Shown here one piece after another: positions 1 to 5,455 of a stretch of DNA of 8,255 bases (position 1 is the first letter of the stretch; the number at the start of each line of letters is the position of its first letter). Below the pieces are notes generated by a model. It saw nothing but the letters and a program-made list of their open reading frames with translations. It was not told the origin of the DNA and searched no databases. Position numbers and translations under genes: made by a program. Source of the DNA: Cytophagales bacterium (GTDB lineage Bacteria; Bacteroidota; Bacteroidia; Cytophagales; Cyclobacteriaceae). Location of the stretch: NCBI GenBank assembly GCA_003537495.1, contig DPSB01000372.1, positions 1 through 8,255 on the forward strand, written 5' to 3'.

Positions 1-1452
1 TATGAAGCCTTGGTAGATGTATTGTTGCAATTGGGTGAAACGGAGTTGGCCATGGGTTATCTGCAAAAAAATAACGAAGACAATTTGAAAGCCAAGTTCA
101 AAAATCTGGATGTGAAATTTGAGAATAGCGATAAGAGTAAGATTGTAGAACAAGAGCGTAACATGAAAGCGAAGTTGGATGGCATTGAACAGCAGATTTC
201 GAAAGAAAAGGCATTGCCTACTGATTTACAAAACAAAGAGAAACTAAAAGCCCTGGATGGCACCAAAACGATTGCCGAAGGTGATTACTTGAAGTTTGTG
301 AATCAGCAGGTAAATGTGCGACCGGAGCTTACCAAGTACTTTAATAATAGCGTACAGCCGGTAGAGTTCAGGCGCGAGAAGAAAAATATTCCGGAAGACA
401 TGGCTTTGCTCTCATACCTGCCAGGTGAAAACCAGCTTTACATTTTTGTAGCCACACGCGATACCGTTATTGCCAAGATTGTAAATGTAGGCCGTGAACA
501 ATTAGGTCGGAATGTAAGCGCTATGTTGAATGTAGCCCGCAACCAGATGGGCGCTTTTGGTAAACTGGATCTTTCGCAGGAAGAAAAATACAGACAAGAG
601 TTGGTGTACACGCAAAAACAAAAAGACAAACTGCTGGTGCCTTTTGAAGAAATGTACCAACACTTAATTGCTCCGGCTGCGGCAGAGATTGCCAACAAAA
701 AGCGATTGGGCATTATTGCCACCGGGGTGTTGAATTATATTCCATTCCAGATGTTGGGTAAAACCCTGGCTAATGGTGAGTTTAATTTACTCGCCAGTCA
801 ATTTGCAATTTTTTATGTAAGCTCAACCAATATTCTTCGGTTGGCCGATTCGGAAAGAAATATGAAGATTATTGCTTTTGGTAATCCGGATAAAACATTG
901 CCAAGTACCGAGCGCGAAGTGGCTGAGATTAAAAAATTATATCCGTCCTCTGCGGTGTTTCTGCACGATCAGGCTACAGAAGAAAAAGTAAAAACAGCTG
1001 GCGATGATTTTACAGTAATGCACTTTGCTACACACGGTAATTTAGATTATGAAGATTTTACCCAATCTTTTTTAACGATGGCTGGTGGTAAAGATATCGA
1101 TGGCGATGGTAAGCTTACACTGGAAGAACTGTGGGGCATGGAAGTAATGAATCACTTAGACATTGTGGTACTCTCAGCTTGCCAGACAGCCGTAACCAAA
1201 GGTTCATCCGAAAGTTCACCGGTAAGTCCGGCCAGTGGCTTTTTACAGAACGGTGTAAAGAGTGTGGTGGCAACTTTATGGAAAGTAGACGATGAAGCAA
1301 CCTCATTATTAATGACAGAGTTTTACAAAAACATGCGCACGATGGCCACGATCGATGCCCTGCGCGAAGCGCAGGTTACATTATCGCGCAATCCAAAATA
1401 CCAACATCCTTACTATTGGGCGGGTGCGATATTGCTGGGCGATTGGCGGTAG
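1..1452 (+). CDS. CHAT-domain (caspase-like) protein, C-terminal part, 5' truncated
   Basis: The reading frame is open from the first base, so the gene begins upstream; the TTG at 10 is not a credible start. About 483 codons are visible. The first ~20 residues (LLQLGETELAMGYLQKN) look like the end of a TPR-type helical repeat. A charged, probably coiled-coil stretch follows to about residue 80. From about residue 130 the sequence fits a CHAT domain: a beta-rich part (LLSYLPGENQLYIFVATRD), the GVLNYIPFQML segment, then the caspase-like dyad. The dyad His is in HFATHG (codon 1033-1035) and the Cys in LSACQTA (codon 1180-1182). The end, GAILLGDWR, is typical of the family. An EF-hand-like loop lies between His and Cys. 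CHAT proteins are known or predicted cysteine peptidases of the caspase/separase clan, often fused to TPRs as sensors. Substrate and localisation cannot be told here because the N-terminus is missing. The domain call is firm; the biological role is unknown. Confidence 0.9.
   Translation, partial: YEALVDVLLQLGETELAMGYLQKNNEDNLKAKFKNLDVKFENSDKSKIVEQERNMKAKLDGIEQQISKEKALPTDLQNKEKLKALDGTKTIAEGDYLKFVNQQVNVRPELTKYFNNSVQPVEFRREKKNIPEDMALLSYLPGENQLYIFVATRDTVIAKIVNVGREQLGRNVSAMLNVARNQMGAFGKLDLSQEEKYRQELVYTQKQKDKLLVPFEEMYQHLIAPAAAEIANKKRLGIIATGVLNYIPFQMLGKTLANGEFNLLASQFAIFYVSSTNILRLADSERNMKIIAFGNPDKTLPSTEREVAEIKKLYPSSAVFLHDQATEEKVKTAGDDFTVMHFATHGNLDYEDFTQSFLTMAGGKDIDGDGKLTLEELWGMEVMNHLDIVVLSACQTAVTKGSSESSPVSPASGFLQNGVKSVVATLWKVDDEATSLLMTEFYKNMRTMATIDALREAQVTLSRNPKYQHPYYWAGAILLGDWR
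1093..1128 (+). other. EF-hand-type Ca2+-binding loop motif inside the CHAT domain
   Basis: The translated 12 residues DIDGDGKLTLEE match the canonical EF-hand loop D-x-D-x-D-G-x-[ILV]-x-x-x-E at every defined position (1, 3, 5, 6, 8 and 12). The loop sits 20 codons after the catalytic His codon and 17 before the catalytic Cys codon. CHAT domains normally have a shorter G-x-L-T-x-x-E segment here, so part of the resemblance (GKLTLEE) is inherited from the family, and the D-x-D-x-D part is the addition. Calcium binding is an inference. Confidence 0.55.
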
Positions 1453-2537: not shown

Positions 2538-4325
2538 TTACTTCTTCACTTCTTGCACGGCAATGCTCAACTCTTTTAATTGTTCATCCGAAATAGTGGA
2601 AGGGGTATCGATCATCATATCTCGGCCTGAATTGTTTTTAGGGAAAGCAATAAAGTCGCGAATGGAATCCGCACCACCAAACAATGAACACAACCGATCG
2701 AATCCAAAGGCAATACCACCGTGTGGCGGAGCGCCAAACTCGAATGCATCCATCAAAAAGCCAAACTGTTTTTTAGCTTCTTCATCGCTAAAGCCTAAAT
2801 GTGTAAACATAAGTTGCTGTGTAGCGCGATCGTGAATCCGGATGGAACCACCACCTACTTCGGTTCCGTTAATCACCATATCGTATGCATTGGCGCGCAC
2901 TGCACCGGGGTTGGTGTCTAACAACTGAATGTCCTGCGGCTTGGGCGAGGTGAACGGATGGTGCATGGCATGCCAGCGATTGGTTTCTTCATTCCATTCC
3001 AATAATGGAAAGTCGATTACCCATAAGGCTGCAAACTTATTTTTGTCGCGTAAGCCAAGTGCATCGCCCATCTTTAAGCGCAATTCATTCAATGCCTTTT
3101 GTGTCTTGGCAGTTTCGCCTGAGAGTACCAGTAATAAATCACCGGGTTGCGCATTGAATTTTTCGGCCCACTGTTTTAGATCTTCGCTTGAATAAAACTT
3201 ATCTACCGATGATTTGAAAGTGCCATCGGTTTTGTATTGCACATACACCAATCCTTTGGCACCAATCTGCGGGCGTTTTACAAACTCCGTAAGTTCGTCT
3301 AATTGCTTGCGGGTATATTCTGCACAACCTTTTGCACAAATACCTACTACAACTTCAGCAGAATCAAAAACACCGAAACCTTTTCTGCGTGCCAGGTCTG
3401 CTCCCCTCTCCTCCGGAGAGGGGCTGGGGGTGAGGTAAACGAACTTCATGTCGAAGCGAGTATCGGGTTTATCCGAGCCGTAGTATTTCATGGCATCGGC
3501 ATACGTCATGTGTGGTACCGATGGCATATCGATACCTTTTACAGTTTTGAATAGGTGCCGAACTAACCCTTCGAACGTATTGAGAATATCTTCCTGGGTG
3601 ATGAAGGCCATCTCGCAATCGATTTGCGTAAACTCTGGCTGGCGGTCGGCTCTTAGATCTTCATCGCGAAAGCATTTTACAATTTGATAGTAGCGATCAA
3701 ACCCAGAAACCATCAGCAATTGCTTAAAGGTTTGTGGCGATTGCGGCAATGCATAAAACTCACCGGGATTCATCCTCGATGGCACCACAAAATCGCGCGC
3801 ACCTTCGGGTGTTGATTTGATTAATACCGGAGTTTCTACCTCAATGAAGTTTAAACTATCTAAATAGATGCGTGTTTGCTGGGCTACTTTATGGCGCAAT
3901 TGTAAATTTTCGCGTACCGGATTTCTACGTAAGTCGAGGTAGCGGTATTTCATGCGCAGGTCATCGCCACCATCGGTATTATCTTCTATGGTGAAAGGCG
4001 GAACTTTTGAAGCGTTGAGTACTTCGAGCGAAGTAACTTTCACTTCAATATCACCTGTTGGCATCTTGTCATTTTTAGAAAGACGCTCTACTACCGTGCC
4101 TTGTACTTTCAGCACATATTCGCGGCCAAGTGTTCGTGCTATTGCGAGGGCTGCAGCATCGGTTTTACCTTCTTCCAGAAAAAGCTGGGTTATACCGTAG
4201 CGGTCGCGCAAGTCGATCCATAGCAGGCTGCCTTTATCGCGGGTACGTTGCACCCATCCCGTAAGGGTAACAGTTTTATTTACATCGTTTAGCCTAAGCT
4301 CGCCACAGGTATGAGTTCTTAACAT
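2538..4325 (-). CDS. aspS: Aspartate--tRNA ligase (AspRS), bacterial type, with in-frame repeat insertion
   Basis: This class IIb aminoacyl-tRNA synthetase activates Asp and charges tRNA-Asp in the cytoplasm. At 595 aa it has the usual bacterial length. The order is: N-terminal OB-fold anticodon-binding domain (about 1-105), catalytic core beginning near YRYLDLRR (127-134), QSPQ at 195-198, motif 2 ([14 protein letters not shown], 219-232), a GAD insertion domain (about 290-415), motif 3 ([10 protein letters not shown], 536-545), and the C-terminal signature [10 protein letters not shown]. Residue 31 is Lys, where E. coli has Leu and some nondiscriminating enzymes have His, so tRNA-Asn discrimination cannot be read from it. 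Residues about 299-309 ([10 protein letters not shown]) are unlike the family and come from a palindromic repeat within the gene. The start ATG at 4325 gives the expected N-terminus ([11 protein letters not shown]). The gene is divergent from the secreted-protein/tadA pair, and the lipoprotein gene follows it. Despite the insertion the frame and all catalytic motifs are intact. Confidence 0.98.
3397..3436 (-). repeat. Palindromic dispersed-type repeat inserted in frame in aspS
   Basis: On the + strand, CCCCTCTCC (3403-3411) and GGAGAGGGG (3415-3423) form a 9-bp inverted repeat with a 3-nt spacer. A C-poor tail, CTGGGGGTGAGG (3424-3435), follows. In the coding direction this reads CCTCACCCCCAG then CCCCTCTCC, and translates to [12 protein letters not shown] recall this string as a widespread short repeat in Bacteroidota and some other genomes, where it yields TPSPSP-type peptides. 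AGGT occurs at 3394-3397 and 3433-3436, 39 bp (13 codons) apart, and may be a target duplication or chance. Judged against remembered AspRS sequences (FVELTxLAxxKGF), the net gain is about 10 codons. Local composition is very GC-rich compared with the rest of the gene. Confidence 0.8.
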
Positions 4326-5429: not shown

Positions 5430-5455
5430 AAAAGCTACCGATTTAGGTAGCTTTT
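5430..5455. terminator. Bidirectional intrinsic terminator between tadA and the lysine-rich gene
   Basis: AAAAGCTACC (5430-5439) pairs perfectly with GGTAGCTTTT (5446-5455) around the 6-nt loop GATTTA. In the + direction the stem ends in TTTT, serving tadA. In the - direction the stem is followed by an uninterrupted T-run and then ATTTTA, serving the convergent gene that stops at 5479. The convergent placement and T-tracts on both sides support a shared terminator, stronger on the minus strand. Confidence 0.9.

Follow-up and report, generated by a model that had tools for sequence, protein, structure and literature searches.

A short palindromic repeat in frame within aspS of a Cytophagales bacterium as the candidate solitary end of a DUF559-associated mobile element

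Homing endonuclease elements such as inteins and mobile introns carry a nuclease open reading frame (ORF) in conserved genes, show patchy occupancy of the same site and leave a co-converted flank. Among short palindromic repeats, the TM/PIT family of Escherichia coli (TM_ECO; Holder et al. 2015, PMC4666352) is described as 23 copies in strain K-12 that are always intergenic, and the accessible part of that report found no link to mobile elements; a palindrome of the TM kind is described in 100 copies from Enterobacter sp. 638 (PMC2869309). Intragenic REPs with GTAG/CGTC tags lie in frame, according to the accessible text of Di Nocera et al. (2013, PMC3733652), inside genes that include those of UvrA and tRNA synthetases. 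Rickettsia palindromic elements are described as in-frame insertions of about 150 bp in unrelated, often metabolic genes (PMC10969869, accessible part). PD-(D/E)XK, Vsr-like nucleases are reported to contain DUF559, a domain that becomes relevant below (PMC12907096, accessible part). The accessible portions of the DUF559 literature gave no link to palindromes, and our search for literature joining homing, in-frame insertion, a tRNA synthetase and a palindromic repeat returned no paper.

Here we analysed a stretch of 8,255 nucleotides (hereafter the window) from a Cytophagales bacterium of the Cyclobacteriaceae, in which the gene for aspartyl-tRNA synthetase (AspRS) carries a short palindromic insert. 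Its product has Pfam matches to tRNA-synt_2, GAD and OB-fold domains, and its best relative in the PDB is 6wom. The first frame of the window (1-1452) presumably encodes the C-terminal portion of a protein with a CHAT domain, judging by a motif. The features of the aspS locus are as follows:

2538..4325, minus strand: aspS, aspartyl-tRNA synthetase (595 aa), the insert-carrying gene (ORF, Pfam and PDB relatives)
3090..3359, minus strand: GAD domain, residues 323-412 (Pfam), which begins 13 residues past the insert
3394..3397, plus strand: AGGT copy once proposed as a target duplication, unsupported by empty alleles and copies
3399..3428, minus strand: ten extra codons, residues 300-309, missing in most relatives (homolog comparison)
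3403..3411, plus strand: left hairpin arm CCCCTCTCC (perfect 9-bp repeat)
3412..3414, plus strand: loop TCC, 3 nt (sequence)
3415..3423, plus strand: right hairpin arm GGAGAGGGG (perfect 9-bp repeat)
3424..3435, plus strand: spacer CT (2 nt) followed by the purine tail GGGGGTGAGG, which corresponds to the 'third strand' in the TM/PIT architecture (sequence; by-eye comparison)
3433..3436, plus strand: second AGGT copy, largely the element's own end (base preceding CTCAC)

Read on the plus strand (3403-3435), the element is CCCCTCTCC-TCC-GGAGAGGGG-CT-GGGGGTGAGG, 33 nt in all, and the perfect 9-bp inverted repeat of the original prediction is present with its 3-nt loop. The counterpart of the tail on the coding strand is the tag CCTCACCCCC, which recurs in other copies. 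By-eye comparison with Table 1 of PMC4666352 points to the same order of parts as in E. coli, that is, a hairpin (CCCTCTCC-loop-GGAGAGGG), a short spacer (2-3 nt) and a purine third strand (GGGGTGAGG), and both kinds are multi-copy and form inverted pairs. By architecture, the insert would thus be a TM/PIT repeat at an unusual site: E. coli copies are described as intergenic, whereas the window copy lies inside the essential aspS gene, and when copies in the genomes of relatives were sorted into intergenic and intragenic ones, 26 of 81 fell within ORFs of at least 150 aa. The repeat resembles the GTAG/CGTC REPs in that short palindromes sit in frame inside genes, including those of UvrA and tRNA synthetases. 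It differs from them in having neither GTAG nor CGTC at the foot of the hairpin, where the tag is CCTCACCCCC / GGGGGTGAGG, and in its same-site occupancy, flanking haplotype and nuclease-family partner, which are described below. A parallel with Rickettsia palindromic elements had also been drawn. It stands for behaviour, namely in-frame insertion in protein genes; in sequence and shape, the repeat agrees with TM/PIT motifs. By their description, the Rickettsia elements are set apart by length and host as well (about 150 bp in Rickettsia versus 33 nt in relatives among the Cyclobacteriaceae).

The palindrome by itself proves little. At least one perfect 9-bp short-loop repeat arose in 16 of 50 dinucleotide shuffles of the window, so that a 9-bp arm alone is unremarkable and the palindrome count was rejected as evidence. 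Scanning the window for such repeats gave one further place, with two overlapping, A+T-richer repeats at 5430, and Rfam returned no match to the window at gathering scores. We take the hairpin as real because its tagged pattern recurs. With at most one mismatch, CTCACCCCCNNCCCCTCTCC gave 166 matches (an element with the tag at both ends counts twice) in 35 of the 62 genomes of a relative's genus, compared with none for the reversed pattern; in a smaller, earlier set the pattern was present in 13 of 29 genomes. Copies were counted in relatives' genomes rather than in the window's own, with up to 21 matches per genome and none in 27 of the 62. In these relatives, the repeat is multi-copy and its arms do occur elsewhere, as expected of the mobile repeat that had been proposed.

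Comparison with homologs located the insertion in aspS. No extra residues were present at the insert point in 105 of the 120 best AspRS homologs, while 15 had 5 to 25 extra residues right after LT. Within one genus, the aspS genes of 46 genomes comprised 3 filled and 43 empty alleles, and the closest empty genome (G234) reads FVELN-DVAQGKGF at the window's insert site. Both the in-frame insertion and the absence of about ten residues from close relatives at exactly this point were therefore confirmed by alignment, and the segment is not common to relatives across the family. The net gain in the window is 30 nt, or ten codons. Residues beside the insert also differ between filled and empty alleles, which suggests that a few bases were replaced in the process. 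The flanking AGGT copies, proposed as a target duplication, did not withstand this comparison: the empty aspS alleles examined in that genus have no ACCT at the left edge, and C precedes the CTCAC tag in 82 of the 83 copies, so that one AGGT belongs largely to the end of the element itself.

The insert had been placed inside the GAD domain, but it lies 13 residues before the Pfam match. In the alignment to 6wom, it falls in a gap of the PDB chain, after residue 307 and before residue 308. An AF2 model of the enzyme, middling overall (mean pLDDT 74), gave a mean pLDDT of 62 over residues 301-310 versus 90 and 89 on the two sides; VIA-align of this model confirmed the AspRS fold and nothing beyond. 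The insert thus fits a flexible loop in the model. For AspRS, it is most likely neutral. Low model confidence over residues 301-310 and extra residues in some homologs are in line with the predicted tolerance of this loop for additions. Likewise, the repeat was expected to be translatable in at least one frame, and with random bases at the variable positions of the 33-nt element, a stop turns up in no more than about 10% of cases in five of the six frames. The sixth always contains one; window 33-mers contain a stop in 39%. That the element is nearly stop-free in five frames helps explain why in-frame copies survive.

The AspRS loop is an insertion hotspot. A region search with 226 AspRS matches listed, 44 of which were dropped as unparsed, found the PSPxER-type insert in 22 of the remaining 182 proteins. 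A second palindrome, TPLLDKEGSGVV, occupies the same loop in opposite orientation in two genomes (G072 and G128), and two further peptides at this place, TPLTPPSRGDMGG in P0135 and SLSAGEGRGEV in P0191, look palindrome-encoded, as judged from protein alone. The P0056 allele looks like partial loss. AspRS of G233 (L254:507-2624) has two in-frame inserts, the hairpin and, near residue 421, a further stretch of about 111 residues; the latter had no Pfam match and may be an assembly error.

Other genes host the repeat as well. Intragenic copies were found in genes for UvrA, LeuRS, a CusA/CzcA-like RND protein, a PDH E1-like protein and an N-acetylornithine carbamoyltransferase-like protein (278 bits at a cut-off of 288; argF'-like hereafter). 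Thirty argF'-like loci of the genus comprised 7 TM-filled alleles (G203, G212, G223, G224, G233, G234 and G254; net gain ten residues), 3 with another insert and 20 empty ones, and G198 of the wider set was also TM-filled. The other insert (L351, L365, L366) is a different palindrome-like sequence at the same point, where the compared stretch measures 48 versus 31 residues. Within UvrA, the hairpin occurs at differing positions and frames of one linker (L374, L376, L394, L369, L375, L379), and this variation across species suggests repeated independent insertion.

Comparison of the genomic surroundings of the repeat points to a partner gene. In our preferred reading, to which we give a probability of roughly 0.6 from sequence comparison, the aspS hairpin would be a solitary end left by a mobile element, and in its full form this element would carry a DUF559 gene between inverted repeats. 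Of 30 DUF559 loci, taken from 20 genomes mostly picked for having TM copies, 22 had a TM copy at a distance of no more than 300 bp, versus 0 of 30 Y1-transposase loci. Eight of the DUF559 loci had copies on both sides, inverted in seven of them (the copies at L400 are not), 14 had them on one side only and 8 had no strict TM within 300 bp. A generic G+C hairpin was present within 250 bp of 26 of 28 DUF559 loci from the TM-chosen genomes and 21 of 28 from an order-wide draw (two short DUF559 loci were left out), compared with 7 of 29 for Y1_Tnp, 4 of 30 for uvrA, 1 of 29 for the argF'-like gene and 0 of 27 for aspS. Hairpins on both sides were found at 11 and 13 DUF559 loci, respectively, and in these controls at 2 Y1_Tnp loci and none of the others. 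Several order-wide DUF559 loci, for example L471 and L479, have long near-perfect terminal inverted repeats, and across the order DUF559 is present in 148 of 291 genomes.

DUF559 also occurs inside host proteins. It lies in frame within LeuRS, MetH, MutS, a RecB/AddA-like helicase and a class I synthetase whose domains suggest IleRS, and at frame ends with RecQ, HsdM, SpoU methylase, QueG, N-formylglutamate amidohydrolase and an amidohydrolase; these terminal fusions may be read-through. In one MetH-encoding frame (L533:2-3400), DUF559 apparently occurs twice, near residues 555 and 989. The motif RRQ-DF.C-E.DG was found in 47 of 59 DUF559 loci, and the nuclease-like motif is kept in the copies inside LeuRS.

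The association extends to other phyla. Fourteen plasmid DUF559 loci from Pseudomonadota, Cyanobacteriota and Deinococcota, fetched out of at least 38 records, had G+C hairpins within 300 bp in 11 cases, compared with 1 of 14 for their outer flanks, and in 3 of the 14 a CTCACC-type tag stood at a perfect hairpin. On Deinococcus plasmids, DUF559 genes (L515, L519) are bounded by inverted hairpins with a different sequence (CCTCCCCC...), a sign that the nuclease and its ends may evolve together. The E. coli K-12 gene ycjD (DUF559; 1351407-1351760) lies 166 bp from TM no. 9 (1351204-1351240), a copy taken from the accessible Table 1 of PMC4666352 with its position read in the E. coli genome; the strict TM finder misses this copy, which has a mismatched stem. 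Related hairpins thus flank DUF559 genes here, whereas the E. coli copies were reported without mobile elements in the accessible part of that paper.

The last point is also one in favour of a different explanation, in which the hairpin would be a REP-like repeat moved by other machinery and the DUF559 genes passengers caught between or beside its copies. TM matches outnumber DUF559 in several genomes (21 versus 2 in G223), and other palindromes fill the same aspS and argF'-like loops. However, association with DUF559 and bracketing by inverted copies are found repeatedly in host genes that are independent of one another and, with hairpins of different sequence, in other phyla; moreover, the LeuRS-embedded copies have conserved the nuclease-like motif. 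We consider this explanation unlikely, though it is a serious one.

A single gene connects the full and the solitary forms. Starting from one intragenic hairpin copy, we reached leuS genes with an in-frame DUF559 domain between TM hairpins. At one leuS site, 20 alleles have hairpin-DUF559-hairpin, 2 have one fused hairpin with the tag at both ends (G217 and G209) and 24 are empty, as read from 46 of 52 loci; six unreadable loci were dropped, among them G249 and G252 with partial matches to the DUF559 stretch. Two rows scored as empty (G100, G229) have 7-8 extra residues and no TM. These states need at least 15 changes on the tree. The coexistence of full, fused and empty states at one site links solo hairpins to DUF559 elements. 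It is on leuS that the step from full to solo rests, because aspS with DUF559 was not found: none of the 226 AspRS matches listed or the aspS matches examined had the domain at the insert site, and no frame of suitable length among the order-wide DUF559 matches listed was an AspRS with DUF559. One candidate for such a fusion, L523, proved HsdM-like. The same linker contains short repeats of AAAATTC type in four empty leuS alleles (L446, L494, L497, L502), which may represent a further small element.

The aspS insertion is real and mobile in evolution. Filled and empty alleles are interleaved on an AspRS tree of 152 rows (insert masked, quick search, SH-aLRT only; 3 proteins and L009 left out), where the pattern of 22 filled rows requires no fewer than 10 changes, of which 6 are forced by starred branches. 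Three of these rows carry another palindrome or a remnant; the 19 TM-type rows alone need at least 9 changes, 5 of them forced in the same way. Between columns 600 and 1250 of an aspS codon alignment, 17 sites are private to the filled alleles of the window, L254 and L226 versus four empty ones, and all of them fall within the 88 columns around the insert (887-974), 11 downstream and six at the left edge, which may belong to the element. Elsewhere, there was 1 such site in the 1179 columns scanned (columns 1250-1560 were left out, and L230 was dropped from the alignment). Window/L226 quartets favour the pairing of filled with filled near the insert (8:0:2 with L227, 9:3:0 with L228) and do not favour it at the 5' end of aspS (2:21:1). 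Interleaved alleles together with a short flanking haplotype common to some filled lineages make it likely that the insert travelled by recombination. We infer that, for the lineages of the window and L226, recombination carried the insert along with about 48 nt of downstream flank.

Alternatively, the same repeat could have been inserted independently into a hotspot loop in each lineage, without recombination between species. This would accommodate the second palindrome in the loop of G072 and G128, the palindrome-like peptides read from protein only, the shifting positions in the UvrA linker and the allele L096 (G188). The latter has the insert, shares just 8 of the 17 linked sites, the nearer ones, and is without most of the downstream haplotype; filled with filled is not favoured in its quartets near the insert, and L096 may owe its insert to an independent event. 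As a general account, independent insertion is rather unlikely, since the window, L254 and L226 have the downstream haplotype in common and GKGF is followed by G in 12 of the 16 distinct filled proteins compared with 0 of 105 distinct empty ones (kinship ignored).

A single old insertion into aspS that was passed on by vertical descent alone and lost repeatedly would scatter filled alleles over the tree too, and P0056 resembles a partial loss. But each loss would have had to restore the ELN-DVAQ flank, and neither the clustering of filled-private sites around the insert, with almost none elsewhere, nor the local quartet signal agrees with it. We therefore regard this history as improbable.

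Mobilisation of the repeat by a RAYT/Y1 transposase, as in a REPtron, is strongly disfavoured. Size and shape of the repeat are REP-like, Y1_Tnp is present in 18 of 20 genomes, some kind of G+C hairpin occurs near the seven Y1_Tnp loci counted above, and in Bacteroidetes RAYT subclass 2.6 is described as flanked by atypical structures (PMC6006769, accessible part). But the window-type repeat was found within 1.5 kb at 0 of 30 Y1_Tnp loci fetched out of at least 50 matches, and it has no GTAG tag; the association was rejected. A chance palindrome in a naturally variable loop would suit the shuffled sequences and the variability of the AspRS loop across Bacteroidota, but the tagged matches in 35 genomes against zero in reversed controls make the likelihood of this negligible.

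Returning to the DUF559-carrying element, a further parallel would be with homing elements. Common to both are an ORF of a nuclease family in the complete element (here DUF559, found in leuS and several more genes, not in aspS) and same-site occupancy scattered on the tree, as reflected in the changes counted for TM-type aspS alleles and for leuS. The element differs in its short inverted hairpin ends and in that the nuclease stays as an internal domain; no splicing domain of introns or inteins was among the Pfam matches of the DUF559-carrying proteins scanned. We propose that the full element consists of a predicted DUF559 nuclease gene between two inverted hairpin copies. In a step akin to homing, the nuclease would cut empty alleles, and repair would insert a copy of the element. 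A solo hairpin would remain once the ORF was lost; thanks to its nearly stop-free sequence, it could stay in frame within a tolerant loop and would need no splicing. The insert-bearing aspS allele would pass between related species by homologous recombination. Homing in this scheme does not account for first entry into non-homologous sites.

A broader proposal, which we advance tentatively and at slightly less than even odds, is that DUF559 serves as the mobility nuclease of hairpin-ended elements across phyla, which would reside as non-splicing in-frame domains in essential genes, and that PIT/TM repeats, those of E. coli included, would be their solitary ends. The DUF559 association in several phyla, together with the leuS states, provides a concrete and testable candidate for the way in which TM/PIT repeats spread. 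If true, a mobile element would endure in essential enzymes with no need for splicing, through a nearly stop-free sequence and insertion into tolerant loops, and DUF559, called Vsr-like in the accessible part of PMC12907096, would have a possible second role. This would also bear on how proteins gain segments.
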